Of a stretch of DNA of 30,615 bases, positions 14,766 through 28,378 are shown one piece after another; positions within the stretch are counted from its first letter, which is position 1; the number at the start of each line of letters is the position of its first letter. Location of the stretch: positions 1 through 30,615 of the IMG/VR virus record IMGVR_UViG_3300017934_000140; one strand, written 5' to 3'. The notes below the pieces were generated by a model. It had not been told where the DNA came from, searched no databases, and saw nothing but the letters and a program-made list of their open reading frames with translations. The position numbers and the translations under genes are program-made. This stretch comes from a virus.

Positions 14766-16022
14766 TCAGTACCCGCTCGGCCGTGCCAGAGTATCGATGT
14801 ACGCACCGCTTCTCGGCGAGTCGTCCCACACCTGGAACGCCGTGTCGAAGTAGAAAATGAACGCCGCGGCCAATCCGCCGCTCGCTCCGTAAATCGGGAA
14901 CACCGTGTTGCCGTTGACCTCGTAAAAATCGATGTCCTTCAGCACCGCGCGTCCCCAATGCGACAGGTCCAGAAAATCCACTCGTGTCTGATCTGCGTTC
15001 ACGCTGGACTTGATCGGAATCCCGCTCATCGTCTTTCGCCCGGTGAACAGCAAATCCAAATCATTGCCGTTCCCGCCGCCGCCCTCTTTGATGATCTGGC
15101 TCACCGTGATCCCCAGGTTTTCCCACGCGTGTTCCTGTTCCACAGCCATGTATGCGATCAGTTTGCTCAGGTGGTTGATCCCCAGCGCCTTCCTCACCTT
15201 GTTGATCGCCAGCCGCACGTTCGCCGGCGTCAGCGCCGCATTCCCCGCGTTCACGCGCGGCGTCGCCAGTTGCACCGGATACGTCGCCCGGTTCAGGTTC
15301 AGCCACGTTCCCGTGGTCGCGTTGTTCTGGTGGTACTTGATCCCGTACAGCGACACCGGCTGCGACCCGCTCAAACCGTCGTGTACGATGACGTCTCCGT
15401 TCGTCAACCCGCTCGGATTGGCATCCACCGTAATCGTCTGCGTCGGGCTGATTGGATCCGCTGCTGTCACGTTGCACGTGCCGCGATTGGTCGTCAGCGT
15501 CGAGTCGTACACCTGCAGCGTCTGTCCCACGTACACCAGCGCCGCCCCTGGCGGTGTCGACATCGTCCACGTCGTGCTGGCGAACGAGCCGATCGTCCCT
15601 AGAACCCCATTCCCGGCCGTCTGCATCAACTTGTCCAGAAACGACCGGAACTGCCTCATCCCGTTGACTACTTCCCTCTTCGCCGCGTTCTCGACCGCCC
15701 TTTCCTTCCCGTTCGTCGCGTATTCCACCAGTTTCGTGATTTCAATCGCGAACCGGAAGAAGATCGGCGAAACCTGCGCCACGTCGTACTGAGATCCCGC
15801 GCCGCGGCCCAAGTCTCCGCCGTCCGCGTTGTACGATCCGGCCTTCCCTCCCGGGTTCACCTGCAGGGGCAGCCTCATGTTGCGGCTGGAAATCCGCTCG
15901 ATGTCGCCCCTTTGCTGCATCATCGTCAATAGAATGTCGTCGCGCTCGTAGAGCAGGGGCACCTTGTCGCGCACCTTCTCGAGCTGCAACGCGATGACAT
16001 TCGCGTTCGCTTGTGCTGGCAT
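14766..16022 (-). CDS. Major capsid protein
   Basis: A 418-residue protein with AAGGAGAG before its ATG, the best ribosome site in the block, as expected for the most abundant product. N-terminal helix IALQLEKVRDKVPLLYERDD; core segments ISPIFFRFAIEI-like (about 82-96) and a long helix (ERAVENAAKREVVNGMRQFR). A middle insertion (about 150-235) has strands and Thr/Gly repeats. The C-terminal half (LAINKVRKALGINHLSK...YMAVEQEHAWE) fits the axial domain of HK97-fold capsids. Placement straight after the scaffold-like and portal genes supports the call, and the length suits P22-type coats (about 430). Confidence 0.85.
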   Translation of the reverse strand: MPAQANANVIALQLEKVRDKVPLLYERDDILLTMMQQRGDIERISSRNMRLPLQVNPGGKAGSYNADGGDLGRGAGSQYDVAQVSPIFFRFAIEITKLVEYATNGKERAVENAAKREVVNGMRQFRSFLDKLMQTAGNGVLGTIGSFASTTWTMSTPPGAALVYVGQTLQVYDSTLTTNRGTCNVTAADPISPTQTITVDANPSGLTNGDVIVHDGLSGSQPVSLYGIKYHQNNATTGTWLNLNRATYPVQLATPRVNAGNAALTPANVRLAINKVRKALGINHLSKLIAYMAVEQEHAWENLGITVSQIIKEGGGGNGNDLDLLFTGRKTMSGIPIKSSVNADQTRVDFLDLSHWGRAVLKDIDFYEVNGNTVFPIYGASGGLAAAFIFYFDTAFQVWDDSPRSGAYIDTLARPSGY

Positions 16023-16555: not shown

Positions 16556-17917
16556 TTAAAGACCCAAAATCTCTTCGTCGCTGATCCTTCCGTAATCCAC
16601 CCGCCGCCCCCCGCCCGCTCCTGCTTCTCTTCGCGTAGCGCTCGTTTTTTCATTCCGTCCGGACACCGCGCGGTCATTTTCTTTCCGTGCTCCCGGCGCC
16701 GCTTCTCGCCGCCCCGTTTCTCCCAGCTCCTCGCGCTCCGCCTCTGCCGGATTTCGTCCTTTTCCCCGCGCGCTCAATGTCGCTTGTGTCCACGAACCCA
16801 CCACGCGCCGCACCGCTCCTGGCACCAACTGCTGCGCCCGCGCATCGATCAATCGCACCACCTGAGCCCTCGCCCCTTCATCGAATCGCCTTCCCGCCAA
16901 AATCTTCGCCACCTGCTCGCCCAACTGCCCGTCGCTCTTGAGTGCCGCCTCAACCTCTTCCCGCACCGCCCCCGCCAATCGTTCTTGTAGCGGCGGGTTT
17001 ACCCCGCCGCCGGGGTCAACTCGCGACGAGTTCACCCTCAAATTCGGCAGCGCTTGTTCCATCATCCGCGCAATCGCCCCGCCCACACTCTTCTCCAACT
17101 CCGTATTCGCCGCCTTCTCAAACTCCCGGTATGCCCCGACCACTTCTTCTGTAGCGCTGGCTGTCATGCCAGCGTTTTCGGTGTCCGCACCCGCATTTCT
17201 GTCATCCCGACCAGAGGACCGCGCCTCCTGCGGCCCGGAGTGGAGGGATCGTGGCATGTTCACCGCATCTTGGCTCGCGCTCGCTTCTGCTCCGTTCCCC
17301 AACCTGCCGCCTGCTCCCAGCAGCCGCACTCCCGCCTCCACCATCTCCCGAAACGCTGCCGGGTCCTGCTGCATCATCTGCCGCGCAAGCTGCGCCCGCG
17401 CCGCACTATCCCCGCGATAAAACGCCGCATCAATCGCATCCAACTCCCGCGCACGTTCCGCCGCCGCTCTGGCCTCACTCGCGCCTCCCGGATAAATCTC
17501 TTTCAGCGCACGCGCATCCTCGGCCGTTGCAAACACCTCGCGATACGCCGCAACTTCCTTCTCCGTCCTCTGCTTGTCATCCCACAGCTCCTTCGCCTCA
17601 TCCCCGTGCCAAGGATCCTTCATCCGCTCCGCCAGCCACTGCGGCACTTCCGTCGCGTTCCCTTCGCTGCTACTCGCCCCGTCTGGCCGGTTGTTCACCC
17701 CGTCCCTGTAGCTCACCCCTTCAGGGGTGAGGCTTTTTTCGTCCCCGCCACCCAACAACTTTTCATCTGCGGTCTTTACGTTTGTCATCCTGAGGGATGC
17801 GTCCTTTGCGTCCCGAAGGACCTCAACCTCAGCTCCGCCACCCAACGGTCCGCCGTCCGGTTCCACCCCCACAATCTGCTCATCCGTCAACGCAAACACT
17901 TCGGTTCCCGCATTCAT
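16556..17917 (-). CDS. Scaffold-like capsid assembly protein carrying translated palindromes
   Basis: A 453-residue protein, ATG with AGGAG about eight bases upstream. The position between portal and major capsid is that of the P22-type scaffold, and the charged, helix-rich composition (AYREVFATAEDARALKE, ARAAAERARELDAIDAAF) agrees; the C-terminal 85 residues are basic, like a coat-binding end. At least five repeats are translated in frame: family A at residues about 33-48, D at 61-73 and 245-257, B at 221-240, and D at 296-314. Without them the protein would be about 375 residues. Despite these insertions the frame is open throughout. The scaffold role rests on position and composition; sequence identity is not recognised. 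Confidence 0.65.
   Translation of the reverse strand: MNAGTEVFALTDEQIVGVEPDGGPLGGGAEVEVLRDAKDASLRMTNVKTADEKLLGGGDEKSLTPEGVSYRDGVNNRPDGASSSEGNATEVPQWLAERMKDPWHGDEAKELWDDKQRTEKEVAAYREVFATAEDARALKEIYPGGASEARAAAERARELDAIDAAFYRGDSAARAQLARQMMQQDPAAFREMVEAGVRLLGAGGRLGNGAEASASQDAVNMPRSLHSGPQEARSSGRDDRNAGADTENAGMTASATEEVVGAYREFEKAANTELEKSVGGAIARMMEQALPNLRVNSSRVDPGGGVNPPLQERLAGAVREEVEAALKSDGQLGEQVAKILAGRRFDEGARAQVVRLIDARAQQLVPGAVRRVVGSWTQATLSARGKGRNPAEAEREELGETGRREAAPGARKENDRAVSGRNEKTSATRREAGAGGGRRVDYGRISDEEILGL
16986..17256. repeat. Family D, D and B palindromes inside the scaffold gene
   Basis: D at 16986-17013 (GGCGGGTTTACCCCGCC), D at 17150-17181 (CGCTGGCTGTCATGCCAGCG) and B at 17200-17256 (CATCCCGACCAGAGGACCGCG...GGAGTGGAGGGATCGTGGC). 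All keep the reading frame. Confidence 0.85.
17707..17827. repeat. Family D and A palindromes inside the scaffold gene
   Basis: D at 17707-17737 (CTCACCCCTTCAGGGGTGAG) encodes the peptide LTPEGVSYRDG; A at 17783-17827 encodes RDAKDASLRMT. Confidence 0.85.
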
Positions 17918-17975: not shown

Positions 17976-20009
17976 CTATTTACAAGCGCTTGCCGCATTC
18001 CCCCCCGCCTGCACCACCTTCAAATGCGCCTCCGCGTGCGCTCGCACATTCGCAAACCCTGCCGGATTCGTCAGCTTCGCCGCCTGCCCCGCCTCCGAGT
18101 TCGCCCACCTCTTGCACTCCTCAAACTCCACCGCGTGATCATCCAACAACACATCCACCGCCACCGACGGCAGCACCACGCTTCCAGCCGCTGACTCCTG
18201 GTCGCCGGCCCGCCCTGAGCTTGCCGAATGGGCCGCTGATCGCTGGTCGCCTGTTCCAATGGTCGACAAAATAATGGGAGCCCCACCCAACATCGCCTGT
18301 ATCTCCCTCAACTGCTTGTTCCGCGCATCCTCCCCCGGCACCACCAGCTCCGTCAGCCCCAGCACGTTCTTGATGTACCCAAGGTTCGCCGGCTCCGCCA
18401 GTGCTTCCTGGATCAACGGGTCCTTCAGCGCAAACAACTGCTGCAGCACGCCCCTCTGCTGCGATTTCAGCCTCGGAAACGTCTCATCCGCCTCCGGGTG
18501 CACGCAAATATTCCCTTTCAAGTCCGCCACTCGAATCATCCGCGCATCCATCGTTCCGTCCGGCCCCAGCAGCGGGACATCCACGTCACCCGGCCGGTTC
18601 TTCCGGAAGCAGTCCACTCCTAGCAGCATCACATCCGCATAAAACTGTTTCACTCGCCGCCACACCAGCCCCAGCCGCCCCATCGCCTGATCCCGAGCCA
18701 TCGCGTAGCCGCTCGCCGTCTTCACGTCCTCCATGTTTCCGCCAAACAGCGCTGGAAACATCCCGGTCAAGAATTGCGCTACCGGTCCAATCAGGTCCTG
18801 CTGGTGCCGGATCATGTCCGGAGGCACTTGCGCCGGTGCCGGCTGGAAAAATCCTGCCGCTAACGGCTGTCCCGGCCGAGCGCGAGCCGGAAAATGTGCC
18901 GCCGGCTCTGCCGTCTGGTTCCCGATCGCATCGAAATCCAAAACTTGCGGGTCGGCGTAAATCGGCGGAATCCCGTACTCATACGTCTCCGCCTGGATAT
19001 TCGATAGCGCGTTGTACCGCTCCTGCACCTGCACCAGCGAATCCCCCACGCTCGGCCGGTTTTGCCCGTCTCCCGGCAACGCGTGCAGCACCCGCCAGTG
19101 ATCGTCCATGCTTTCATTTCGCGCTTCGCAATACACGTCCCCGGCAAACCCCACGTAGCATCCCTCCGGGAACAGCGTCAACAAATCCTTTCGCACCGCC
19201 TCGTCTTCCACTCCATAAAACGCCCACGGCCGCAGCCAAGTCCGGTCAAATGTAATCAAATTCATCAGCGCGTCGCCGGGATGGATCGAAGGCAATCCCT
19301 GCTCCACGCTCAACCGCGACACGCGCGCATACACGTCCTCTGCGCCTTGCGATGGCGCGCTCTCGATCTTGTCCGCCACCAGCGGATACGCCGCCTTCAA
19401 CTTCGCTCGATGCACTTCCGCCTGCCATTGCAGGTACGGAAATTCGTCCATCTCGTTCGCCCACACCGGCGTATTCAACTCCAATCCCCCCGCGATCGAA
19501 ATCACTTCCTGCCCATTCGCCACTCGCCGCACCCCCGCCACCCGCGGCACCGTCACCCGCTCCGCCCTCCTCAGGTCCTTCTCCCCCATCTCCGCCCCGC
19601 ACTCCGGGCACACACCGGGTTGACTCCTGTAGGGCCCGCCTTCTGAGGCGGGCCGTTCCGCGTTCCCCGCGTCTTGGCTCTCCCCTCTCCTTACACCCAG
19701 CCCTGTCATCCTGAGCGGCGCGTCGTTTGCGCCGCGAAGGATCTCATCTTTAACCCCACCTCCGCCGTTCCCTGCACCACCCAACCCTTCACTGTCATCC
19801 GGAACGAATGCGAGGGATCTGCTGTTCTCTTCGCTCGCCACTCGCCACTCGCCACTTCCGCCCGGCTCTTCTTCCCGCACTCCGGACAAACCCACACATC
19901 CTCTCCCAGCGGAATCTCCACCGCCTCCAGCAATTCCTCCTCGTGAAACCCGAATCGCTGCGCATCCTCCACATACCGCACGTACGCGCCCAGCTTCCCG
20001 TCCGTCCAC
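17976..20009 (-). CDS. Portal protein, C-terminal part (shifted frame)
   Basis: Credible portal sequence begins at about 19858 and runs to 17976. It opens with a second CPECG half-ribbon (about 19600), then VYARVSRLSVEQGLPSIHPG, the wing region, ERYNALSNIQAETYEYGIPP, and a C-terminal helical region with AMGRLGLVWRRVKQFYADVM. Size and order fit a large P22-type portal (about 725 residues) once repeats are removed. It overlaps the N-terminal part by 300 bases in a different frame; no start with a convincing ribosome site lies in this frame. The end carries GDQRSAA and GDQESAA, encoded by heptamer arrays at 18184-18260 split by a family E palindrome. Whether the two parts make one functional protein is open. 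Confidence 0.72.
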   Translation of the reverse strand: MDGREAGRVRAVCGGCAAIRVSRGGIAGGGGDSAGRGCVGLSGVREEEPGGSGEWRVASEENSRSLAFVPDDSEGLGGAGNGGGGVKDEILRGANDAPLRMTGLGVRRGESQDAGNAERPASEGGPYRSQPGVCPECGAEMGEKDLRRAERVTVPRVAGVRRVANGQEVISIAGGLELNTPVWANEMDEFPYLQWQAEVHRAKLKAAYPLVADKIESAPSQGAEDVYARVSRLSVEQGLPSIHPGDALMNLITFDRTWLRPWAFYGVEDEAVRKDLLTLFPEGCYVGFAGDVYCEARNESMDDHWRVLHALPGDGQNRPSVGDSLVQVQERYNALSNIQAETYEYGIPPIYADPQVLDFDAIGNQTAEPAAHFPARARPGQPLAAGFFQPAPAQVPPDMIRHQQDLIGPVAQFLTGMFPALFGGNMEDVKTASGYAMARDQAMGRLGLVWRRVKQFYADVMLLGVDCFRKNRPGDVDVPLLGPDGTMDARMIRVADLKGNICVHPEADETFPRLKSQQRGVLQQLFALKDPLIQEALAEPANLGYIKNVLGLTELVVPGEDARNKQLREIQAMLGGAPIILSTIGTGDQRSAAHSASSGRAGDQESAAGSVVLPSVAVDVLLDDHAVEFEECKRWANSEAGQAAKLTNPAGFANVRAHAEAHLKVVQAGGNAASACK
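18184..18260 (-). repeat. Heptamer array split by a family E palindrome, inside the portal gene
   Basis: Heptamers (GGCGACC, AGGAGTC, AGCGGCT and AGGCGACC, AGCGATC, AGCGGCC) flank the inserted palindrome at 18209-18234 (GGCCCGCCCTGAGCTTGCCG...GGGCC). All is translated in frame. Confidence 0.7.
19628..19854. repeat. Repeat cluster in the portal zinc-ribbon linker
   Basis: From left to right: D at 19628-19655 (GGCCCGCCTTCTGAGGCGGGCC), A at 19704-19746, short A at 19793-19820, and three perfect copies of CTCGCCA at 19834-19854. Together they fill the stretch where the portal frame changes. Confidence 0.85.
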
Positions 20010-20662
20010 AAAAAATATCCGATCGACGTCAGCAAGTGCTCCACATGATTGTTCCGCTCGATCAACTCCGCCACATCGCTCGCCGCGCGTGCCGCCGCTA
20101 TGTCCACCAGCGATTGGAACGATTGCGGGAAGAACCGCACGCTCGGCACATCCTGCGAAAGCACCGCCACGAACGACAGCCCAAATCCCTGGTAGAAATT
20201 TGTCACAAACTGGTACCGCGGCATCTCCTCCAGCGCGCGGTCGTCGCTCGACCGATGTTCGTACGGCAAGTGCCAGTTCATGTCATTCGGGTTCCACCAC
20301 ATGTACTGCAATCCCTGCCAGAACAGCCGCGCCTGCCGTATCCTGCGAATCTCGTGCCTCCGCGCCGCCACTCCTTCCATCCGGTACTGCCGCACCAATT
20401 CCCGCAGCGCGTTCACCAGCTCCGGCCGTTCCTCGTCCAACCTCTCCAGATTCGGCCCCAGCTCTTGTAGGGACGGCCTTCTGAGGCCGTCCGCTCTCGC
20501 TGCCTCATTCGCCCGCAACCCGCCATCTCTGTAGCTCACCCCTTCAGGGGTGAGGCGTTTTCCAACCAGGTCCCCGCCGTACTCCGAACTCGCGCTCGTC
20601 CCGGCATTCCCATCCGCCGGCGCCATCACGCCCCGCTCAAACTCATTCATCTCGTTTCCCAT
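19706..20662 (-). CDS. Portal protein, N-terminal part
   Basis: I start it at the ATG at 20662, which has GAGAG upstream; the open frame beyond is a translated family C repeat. Residues about 80-280 show portal-like features: QARLFWQGLQYMWWNPND, a wing segment with FYQGFGLSFVAVLSQDVP, and a long helix (AAARAASDVAELIERNNHVE). It then reaches a CPECG half zinc-ribbon and runs into repeat DNA, ending at a stop created inside a family A element. Two D palindromes are translated near the start (residues about 35-47, peptide LTPEGVSYRDG, and about 57-67). The second CPECG and the rest of the portal lie in the -1 frame. Confidence 0.75.
   Translation of the reverse strand: MGNEMNEFERGVMAPADGNAGTSASSEYGGDLVGKRLTPEGVSYRDGGLRANEAARADGLRRPSLQELGPNLERLDEERPELVNALRELVRQYRMEGVAARRHEIRRIRQARLFWQGLQYMWWNPNDMNWHLPYEHRSSDDRALEEMPRYQFVTNFYQGFGLSFVAVLSQDVPSVRFFPQSFQSLVDIAAARAASDVAELIERNNHVEHLLTSIGYFLWTDGKLGAYVRYVEDAQRFGFHEEELLEAVEIPLGEDVWVCPECGKKSRAEVASGEWRAKRTADPSHSFRMTVKGWVVQGTAEVGLKMRSFAAQTTRRSG
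20466..20559. repeat. Two family D palindromes inside the portal gene
   Basis: 20466-20493 (GGACGGCCTTCTGAGGCCGTCC) and 20530-20559 (CTCACCCCTTCAGGGGTGAG). The second encodes the same LTPEGVSYRDG peptide as a copy in the scaffold gene. Confidence 0.85.
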
Positions 20663-20692
20663 AAACTCTCTCGATTGCACATCAACCAAAGT

Positions 20693-20748
20693 GCTTGAGG
20701 GTGCCCCACCCTTTCTGCGCATTTTGCAGAAAGGGTGGGCTCTTACGA
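20693..20748. repeat. Family C repeat upstream of portal
   Basis: GAGGGTGCCCCACCCTTTCTGC and GCAGAAAGGGTGGGCTCTTACG form a stem of more than 12 bp. Confidence 0.8.
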
Positions 20749-20798
20749 TCTGACGCCTCACACTCTCTTCTCTTAACTCTTGGGCTTTTCTTCCCCGC

Positions 20799-22332: not shown

Positions 22333-22371
22333 ATTGCTTCCTTACCTCTTTCCTTCTTTGCTTCCTCCTTC
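22333..22371 (-). repeat. Octamer array after the terminase gene
   Basis: On the minus strand: GAAGCAAA, GAAGGAAA, GAGGTAAG, GAAGCAAT, within a few bases of the terminase stop. Confidence 0.65.
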
Positions 22372-24073
22372 ACCAATTCCATCTCCGCTTCCCCAACCGG
22401 TGCGGCCCCAACTGCTTCCTCGCCTCCGCCTCCAGCCTCTGCCGATGAATCGCCCGCGAAGTCGGATCCTCCGCGCTGATCTGCCGCTCGATCTGCACCG
22501 CCACCGGTATTCCCGGCACAAATCGCGCTCCACTCGTTAAACCATTAGGGGGCGGAGCCTGCCCCGCCCCGGGCCCGCCTTCCGTAATCTTGGCGAAGGA
22601 GGGTGCCCCAAGACCGGCGTATCGCACGCCGGAAACCAATCCATATCTCGCCGCGTCCGCCGGATCATCCCCCTCTACCTTCCGGACGTCCTCCACGCGC
22701 CGCTCATCTCTCACCAGCAACGGCAGGCCCTCAATCAACTCCCGGCAATTCTCCGTAATCACCCACTCGTCGTTTTCCAGCATCTGGTACATCAACTGCC
22801 ATCCGCCCACACGGTCGTCATCCGCGGGCACCGGCCGCGGTAATCCGTTCTGCGCCAGCACCTCGCCCAACTGTTCTGCAATCGACGCCTCGCTCGTCCG
22901 GTGCGCGAACGCGTCCGGCGACAGAACCACTTCCTCGATTCGCTCGCCCGCACTCCGTTCCGCGATCGCCTGGGCCAGCATTCGCGGCGAAAGCTCGTTC
23001 TTCACAAACTCGCGGTATGTGACAACCCGACAAGGGTCGTCATCCTGAGCGCATCTGTCGCGCGAAGGATCCCTCTGCTCCCCACGAGTCCCGGACCACG
23101 ACTCACGAATCACGCCATCCGGCACCGCACAATGCCAATACACCGCGCTGTTATGATGGAATCCCCAATCGATCGAAATCCACCTCGGCCACCACGCCTG
23201 CATCCCGATCTCGTCCGCCCGGGCCGTGTGTCGTCCAATTTCAAACACATTAAAATACTGCCCCGCGAAGACGCTCCAATCCCCTTCCAGAAACGCTTTC
23301 CGCAACCGTTCCGGCAAAGCCTCCAGCGTCTTCCGGTAATTCATGTCCTCCGCGTAAATCGGGTTGTCCTCAATCCGCGCCTCAATGAAGTCGTAATCGT
23401 TCGCATCGTACTGTTCCGGTCGGTCATACCCCGGCGGCGGCACCTTATCCACCCACAGCGCCTTCACCCACGCGTGCCCGATATTCCCCGGGTTCGTCGC
23501 CCCCGCCATGCACGGTTTCGACCCCGCAATCGGGCAACGGTTCCGCGAAGTTAGAAACTGCCATTGCTTTAACGTGAAATGTGTCAGCTCATCGATCCCG
23601 ATGAACAAAAACTCCGCGCCCTGGTACTGGTAAACGTCATTCTCATTCCGGCAGTACCCGAACCGGATCGTCGAACCGTTCCTTAGCGTCACCAGGTGCT
23701 TTGCTTCGTTGTAGCTGTGGTATTCCGTGTGCGGCACGTGCCGCCGGAACTGCGCAATCAGCGAACTTTCCAATTCAGGGTAAGTCCTTCTCAAAAGCAG
23801 TGAATCGCTGCCTGCATGCTTCCTGGCTTGGATGAACGCTTCCTCAAGCAGCGCCCTTGTCTTCCCTGGCCCCGCCGCCCCGCCGAATAGTCGGTATGTT
23901 TTTCCCGAGTCGTGGAACTGCTTCTGCCGCGGATACGCTGTGTAGGATTTCCTCGGCTCGCCCTGTCTAGCTCTCTCTTGGCGCTCCGCTTTTATACGGT
24001 TCGCTTCTCCCACCGCCCTGAAGGTATGCTCTCGCGGCCGTCTTATTATTTCGCCTTTGCACGGTTTGCCCAC
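22370..24073 (-). CDS. terL: Terminase large subunit
   Basis: A 567-residue ATPase-nuclease that packages DNA into the procapsid. Walker A is GGAAGPGKT (residues 64-72), Walker B is FLFIGIDE (about 155-162), and the coupling motif is ATNPGN (192-197). The RNase-H-like nuclease starts at ISIDWGF (299-305, Asp302), has a second acidic strand EVVLSPDAF, and ends with GDDPADAARYGL. Residues about 327-347 (GTRGEQRDPSRDRCAQDDD) are a translated family A palindrome inside the nuclease domain, and the Gly/Pro-rich stretch near the C-terminus also holds repeat debris. The GTG at 24073 is the only start in frame before an upstream stop; its ribosome site is poor. No adjacent small subunit is certain. 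Confidence 0.93.
   Translation of the reverse strand: MGKPCKGEIIRRPREHTFRAVGEANRIKAERQERARQGEPRKSYTAYPRQKQFHDSGKTYRLFGGAAGPGKTRALLEEAFIQARKHAGSDSLLLRRTYPELESSLIAQFRRHVPHTEYHSYNEAKHLVTLRNGSTIRFGYCRNENDVYQYQGAEFLFIGIDELTHFTLKQWQFLTSRNRCPIAGSKPCMAGATNPGNIGHAWVKALWVDKVPPPGYDRPEQYDANDYDFIEARIEDNPIYAEDMNYRKTLEALPERLRKAFLEGDWSVFAGQYFNVFEIGRHTARADEIGMQAWWPRWISIDWGFHHNSAVYWHCAVPDGVIRESWSGTRGEQRDPSRDRCAQDDDPCRVVTYREFVKNELSPRMLAQAIAERSAGERIEEVVLSPDAFAHRTSEASIAEQLGEVLAQNGLPRPVPADDDRVGGWQLMYQMLENDEWVITENCRELIEGLPLLVRDERRVEDVRKVEGDDPADAARYGLVSGVRYAGLGAPSFAKITEGGPGAGQAPPPNGLTSGARFVPGIPVAVQIERQISAEDPTSRAIHRQRLEAEARKQLGPHRLGKRRWNW
23039..23071. repeat. Family A palindrome inside terminase
   Basis: CGTCATCCTGAGCGCATCTG...GCGCGAAGGATCC. 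It falls in frame between the first nuclease strand and the next helix, where a surface loop would be expected. Confidence 0.85.
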
Positions 24074-27541: not shown

Positions 27542-28378
27542 GTGCCTTCACCGACACCGCTCCCCAAACTTGCCAACATCCGCCTCCACCCCATCAAGTC
27601 TCTCGACCCTGTCTCCGTCACCGAAGCCCGCATCTCTCCCTCCGGTGGACTCGCTCTTGACCGCGCCTGGGCTCTGTATTCCGTAGACGGCCAGTGGGTT
27701 AACGGCAAGCGCACTCCCGCGGTCCATCTCATCCGCGCCAACTATTCGCCCGACCTCCGTTCCGTCACCCTTTCCGTCCCCGCCGATCGCCGCAAAATCC
27801 CGCCGCGCACGTTCGCTTTCCCCGCCGAACACGAAGAAGCCTCCGAGTGGTTCAGCGTGTTCTTCGAGCAACAGATAATCGTTCGCTATTCTCCCGGGGG
27901 CTTCCCCGACGACACCATTGCCAACGGCCCCACCATCGTTTCCGCAGCCTCGCTCCAGGCCGTCGCCGAATGGTTTACGGGTCTCACCGTCGACGACGTT
28001 CGCCTTCGCTTTCGCACCACTCTCGAAATCAACGTCGACCCGGAAAGGGTCGCGCTTGGAGAGAAGTTGCCGCCCTTCTGGGAAGACCAGCTCTTCGGCG
28101 AAAACGAACGCAGCGTCGTTCGCTTTACCATCGGCGAAGTCGCCTTCGAGGGCAGCAATCCCTGCGCCCGCTGCCCCGTTCCTCCCCGCGATCCTTTCAC
28201 CGGTCTGAATCTCGACGGCTTCCAAAAGCATTTCACTCGCCGGCGCGAAACCACTCTCCCCGCATGGTCCCCCCGCCCTCGCTTCGACCACTTCTACCGC
28301 TTCGCCACCAACACCCGCGTCCCCTCCTCCCAAGCCGGCCGCCTCCTCCGCCTCGCCGACCCCCTCACCCTTTCCTAA
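27542..28378 (+). CDS. MOSC-domain protein
   Basis: A 278-residue protein, GTG start. Residues about 8-110 form the MOSC N-terminal beta-barrel (ANIRLHPIKSLDPVSVTEA, GLALDRAWALYSVDGQWVN). The MOSC domain follows, with NPCARCPVPPRDPFTG (about 212-227) containing the cysteine expected to bind or transfer sulfur in molybdenum cofactor-related proteins. This family includes molybdenum cofactor sulfurase C-terminal domains and the mARC and YiiM/YcbX types; the length and two-domain form suit YcbX-like proteins. The enzyme role is inferred from the family. It is a host gene transcribed away from the phage block, likely from a leaderless mRNA. Confidence 0.88.
   Translation: MPSPTPLPKLANIRLHPIKSLDPVSVTEARISPSGGLALDRAWALYSVDGQWVNGKRTPAVHLIRANYSPDLRSVTLSVPADRRKIPPRTFAFPAEHEEASEWFSVFFEQQIIVRYSPGGFPDDTIANGPTIVSAASLQAVAEWFTGLTVDDVRLRFRTTLEINVDPERVALGEKLPPFWEDQLFGENERSVVRFTIGEVAFEGSNPCARCPVPPRDPFTGLNLDGFQKHFTRRRETTLPAWSPRPRFDHFYRFATNTRVPSSQAGRLLRLADPLTLS

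Follow-up and report, generated by a model that had tools for sequence, protein, structure and literature searches.

Interrupted portal gene and its heptamer array

The window analyzed here, a 30.6-kb IMG/VR record (IMGVR_UViG_3300017934_000140; 30,615 nucleotides taken as a whole), carries on its minus strand a phage gene that is split into two overlapping open frames around a short heptamer array. The N-terminal open frame spans 19706-20761, of which 19874 and above is conserved, and the C-terminal open frame spans 17976-20009, with a conserved part at 17976-19610. Both parts match the same relatives, in which they belong to one long open reading frame (ORF). The gene was recognized by neither Pfam nor PHROGs. 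An AlphaFold model of relative L060, built from 76 aligned sequences, had a predicted local distance difference test score (pLDDT) of 87. The Foldseek matches listed for this model were phage portal, neck or tail-complex structures, the best of them to a portal (E = 5e-14), and the first and best PDB matches were the podophage portals of Pa223, Pan3, SU10, N4, and P22. On the strength of this predicted fold, the interrupted gene is a podophage-type portal. It lies next to the genes for the terminase large subunit (TerL, 22370-24073) and the major capsid protein (14766-16022), in the same cluster. The fold and these neighbours bear out the sequence-only reading of this DNA, made without database searches, which had called the gene a portal.

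Two CxxC motifs, both reading CPECG and resembling zinc knuckles, flank the interruption on the minus strand: the first lies in the N frame (19874-19888) and the second in the C frame (19596-19610). They are invariant across a ten-sequence alignment, and they probably form a zinc ribbon. Between them lies a hypervariable linker (19611-19873, minus strand) of 263 bp, a length that leaves a remainder of two when divided by three, and it is within this linker that the frame is lost.

The array lies in the linker at 19834-19856 and comprises 3.29 perfect units with 100% match, reading AGTGGCG on the coding strand and CTCGCCA on the plus strand. Three perfect CTCGCCA units occupy 19834-19854, exactly where the sequence-only reading had placed them, and two further matching bases reach 19856. 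This was the only perfect array of at least three units at periods 4-21 in the window, and nothing matching it arose in dinucleotide-preserving shuffles.

The minus-strand C frame stays open between 20282 and 17976, and the N frame runs from 20761 to a stop at 19706, so the array does sit inside the overlap of the two portal frames, as had been proposed. The reading frame thus depends on how many tandem units the array has: one, four or seven units join the N and C frames without a stop, whereas two, three, five or six do not. The predicted gain of one unit, giving four copies, would unite the frames with no stop in the joined frame. The companion claim, that loss of units would not restore the frame, holds for the loss of one unit and fails for the loss of two, since a single remaining unit joins the frames. 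We also looked for a frameshift elsewhere in the portal of the window and found none. Matches of the N part extend to residue 296 and those of the C part begin at the second CPECG motif; the frame loss is located at the array.

A permissive linker kept in frame

In relatives the linker measures 27 to 402 bp, differs in almost every relative, and has little common sequence. Its length was nevertheless divisible by three in 89 of 93 distinct linkers, and in 84 of 87 after similar ones were removed, and the portal is therefore kept as one chain in these relatives. The linkers are largely made of dispersed host-type repeats that are translated in frame, such as SLDSGLQKAQTSARDD, LTPEGVSYT, and EILRSAKDADLRMT. 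Two such elements occur on the minus strand in the linker of the window. A dispersed host-type repeat at 19711-19749 reads EILRGANDAPLRMT in the C frame and has similar in-frame counterparts in other linkers (e.g., L008 and L007), and a dispersed palindromic repeat at 19629-19655 reads RPASEGGPYR, with a similar element in L002 and L013. Imperfect arrays of period seven were found 27 times in non-redundant linkers, compared with at most four for each other period from 4 to 12. Heptamer arrays, differing in unit sequence, are therefore a recurrent component of the loop. Most relatives have no perfect CTCGCCA array in the linker.

Host-type repeats also seem to be read in frame outside the linker. 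Such repeats, for example LTPEGVSYRDG and DGLRRPSLQ, seem to occur in the N-terminal region of the portal (20466-20560), its C-terminal variable tract (17976-19600), the probable scaffold gene (16556-17917), and the terminase gene (22370-24073).

Programmed -1 ribosomal frameshifting could in principle join the two frames of the window, or the halves could act as separate chains. Two candidate slippery words, TTTTTTG (20015) and AAATTTC (20201), do occur within the overlap in the N frame. However, a slip at either word would replace the conserved stretch through the first CPECG motif, and the linkers of 89 of 93 relatives are read in a single frame without any slip. We rejected ribosomal frameshifting because a slip at these words would destroy conserved sequence, and consider joining by frameshifting or function as separate chains extremely improbable.

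Probable loss of one unit from a four-unit element

Comparison with other sites indicated that the array is a dispersed heptamer with many genomic sites and a peak at four units. Relative L028 has a four-unit array at the same place, with a single base change in one unit, and it is read in frame (EVASDEWRVASEGEEK). Of 75 TGGCGAG arrays found in contigs of viruses and bacteria, 43 measured ~4.5 units and about five were three-unit sites. Chromosomal sites of the TGGCGAG type were present in 14 of 89 genomes of the family and held three or four perfect units; no array of five or more perfect units was found among the chromosomal sites of the 89 genomes. A compound element, consisting of the array followed by cgaagaga..agcagatccctcgc, carries four units in L007 and L012 and is partly present in L175 and L223. 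In contigs unrelated to the cluster (L150, L161, L167, and others), TGGCGAG arrays of about four units are often paired in inverted orientation with short spacing.

The two portal halves of the window still show purifying selection, with ratios of nonsynonymous to synonymous substitution (dN/dS) of 0.115 and 0.103 against L012, and the terminase, capsid, and other conserved genes of the window match in a single frame. It follows that the loss of frame is either recent or not real. We propose that the array belongs to a family of dispersed heptamer elements whose normal size is four units, and that it is placed in a permissive loop of the portal, bounded by two Cys-pair motifs, which accepts host-type repeats as long as the frame is kept. 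The copy in the window lacks one 7-bp unit, which leaves the N-terminal and C-terminal portal parts in different frames. Slippage or recombination between repeats would have deleted this unit recently, unless the assembly collapsed, and would have inactivated this allele of the portal. The rest of the phage-derived cluster is intact and probably largely inherited with the host chromosome. We assign a probability of roughly 0.78 to the reading that the window copy has lost one unit of a near-fixed-size dispersed repeat, within a permissive loop of the portal, in a phage-derived cluster.

Several points weigh against this interpretation. The four-unit state was not seen in the window's own lineage, and the ancestral state is taken from relatives. 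No second copy of the exact array site, with any unit number, was found in IMG/VR, so a real deletion and an assembly error look the same in the assembled sequence. Moreover, a 30-bp array holds repeated 21-mers, so that collapse is possible at small assembly word sizes.

That the missing unit is an assembly or sequencing artefact, and that the array really has four units in an unbroken portal gene, is accordingly a possibility to be taken seriously, though we hold it to be the less probable case. Four is the usual size of the array, decay is absent elsewhere in the portal and in the other conserved genes of the window, and some genomes carry identical array words at several sites, which could confuse short-word assembly. 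A frameshift in L024 is likewise confined to a single contig, with near-identical relatives intact. On the other hand, an array of 21-28 bp is much shorter than common reads, and since a 30-bp array repeats 21-mers but not 27-mers, collapse would be likely only at short assembly words. Broken portals common to independent assemblies (L003, L004, and L192; L008 and L049) show that real breaks occur.

No support for a phase-variable switch

The sequence-only reading had seen in the array the arithmetic of a phase-variable contingency locus, which would turn particle production on or off. In such a locus, slippage would reversibly toggle the portal frame (four, one or seven units being in frame), as in neuO of prophage CUS-3. 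The position of the array, its unit length, and the frame arithmetic are all compatible with such a switch, and heptamer switching is known for neuO, a prophage-borne gene with 3-53 units (PMC13001214). However, the array of the window has only three units. Unit numbers are neither long nor broadly distributed, as the family genomes keep three or four perfect units and four are favoured elsewhere, and the perfect array is missing from most relatives' linkers. Length did not differ in any of 27 arrays compared between contigs at ≥99.5% identity or in any of 13 arrays at 95-99.5%, and was thus constant in all 40 compared; a separate alignment showed one 28-bp difference at 96.3% identity.

The other interrupted portals are broken elsewhere, none of them at a perfect CTCGCCA array. 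In three assemblies (L003, L004, and L192) the break lies one base upstream, in L024 it lies downstream, in L008 and L049 the portal is broken by a stop, and L184 has a frameshift within the linker. These breaks resemble ordinary inactivation or errors. The proposed switching of particle production is therefore not supported by the present comparison, and we regard it as very unlikely. The missing unit of the window array looks like a one-off loss or an assembly error and not like an on/off switch. As a switch the array probably means nothing; its value was in leading to the portal loop and the phage cluster.

Portals are interrupted by differing lesions in several relatives (L008/L049; L003/L004/L192; L184; L202) while the neighbouring genes seem intact, and some of these lesions are common to independent assemblies.

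Phage-derived cluster at a conserved chromosomal locus

The genes for TerL and the major capsid protein are both intact and lie on the minus strand, as does an intact conserved ORF between portal and capsid (16556-17917), which by its position only is probably the scaffold gene. The cluster encodes functions for packaging, head, tail, and lysis (a lytic transglycosylase). No integrase was seen in the cluster, with not every small ORF scanned. A host gene with a MOSC domain (27542-28378, plus strand) flanks the cluster, and this locus is conserved across genomes.

The relatives that have named hosts are metagenome-assembled genomes of Acidobacteriota, including Ca. Acidiferrum typicum. In a first comparison, seven genomes had both genes on one contig, and MOSC was on the same flank of the cluster in every one of them. 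NadE (Pfam NAD synthase) lies on the opposite side, 16-28 kb from the capsid gene, in 14 genomes that have both of these genes on one contig, and neighbouring genes on both flanks of the cluster are common to genomes. The phage cluster (14766-28378 in the window) sits at this MOSC-NadE locus in many acidobacterial genomes of one family (G001, G003-G006, G009, G039, and others). In G047 a distance of 128 kb separates the capsid gene from NadE on a single contig, and in some other genomes they are on separate contigs, so the locus is not universal. The cluster of G047 may be at a second locus or may have moved.

Where a genome lacks the capsid gene, about 2-10 kb lie between MOSC and NadE. Six of 13 such reduced sites examined held fragments of cluster genes (G022, G026, G032, G041, G035, and G014), and these relics speak more for an old insertion that was later lost in some genomes than for repeated integration at a hot spot. 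Among the 14 linked genomes, well-supported groups in the capsid and NadE trees agree, NadE being one host gene only, and the distances of the two genes are correlated (Mantel r = 0.75, p = 0.0001). The capsid gene had a dN/dS of 0.04-0.11, like NadE, and 0.16 against L012.

The phage cluster thus appears to have been long inherited with the bacterial chromosome and has probably been domesticated. One locus, agreeing trees, low capsid dN/dS, and relics together form a pattern expected of an endogenized element resembling a gene transfer agent (GTA). Three of the GTA features described previously (PMC9662315) were found by sequence, namely particle proteins derived from caudoviruses, endogenization in host genomes, and mostly vertical inheritance. 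Endogenization is based on the capsid gene and NadE sharing one contig in 14 genomes, with flanking genes shared on both sides. Tentatively, and with odds that we put below even, the cluster could be a working podophage-type GTA of Acidobacteriota, vertically inherited at MOSC-NadE, with a portal zinc-ribbon loop that takes up host repeats in frame, and heptamer unit loss would be one route to losing particle production.

We found no description of a GTA in Acidobacteria or Acidobacteriota among the titles and abstracts listed from an open-access library, and a survey reported prophages in other subdivisions of Acidobacteria (PMC5900883). If the cluster makes particles and these carry host DNA, it would provide Acidobacteriota with a route of gene transfer, and broken portals would serve as natural knock-outs. 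The cluster behaves like a piece of the chromosome in a soil phylum that is abundant but little cultured. The portal loop, which stays in frame through many unrelated repeat insertions, records naturally which changes a virion protein can tolerate.

Comparison with known systems

Dispersed heptameric simple repeats with a four-unit preference (GGGAATC, GGGGA(C/T)T) have been described in Xanthomonas and Nostoc, where the associated genes are spread over functional classes (PMC4692102). The array of the window resembles them in its seven-base unit, its dispersal in genomes, and its clear preference for four units. In contrast to those repeats, the unit of the window has only GG, other linker heptamers lack it, and translation runs through the array in frame within a protein.

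In neuO of prophage CUS-3, the heptamer AAGACTC is repeated in the 5' region and switching has been measured (PMC13001214). Both cases involve a heptamer array in a prophage-borne gene, with the unit number modulo three setting the frame. They differ in that the array of the window consists of about three units of a near-fixed-size element in the middle of the gene, is mostly absent from relatives, and was not seen to vary.

Rickettsia palindromic elements are dispersed host repeats that are tolerated in frame within protein genes. The portal linker likewise tolerates dispersed host repeats in frame inside a protein gene, but a single phage-portal loop holds several repeat types that are unrelated to each other.

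With its podophage-type portal and its acidobacterial hosts, the cluster differs from the known GTAs and viriforms (PMC9662315). Like them, it is an endogenized structural cluster of caudovirus origin, in which no integrase was seen and whose capsid tree fits that of a host gene.
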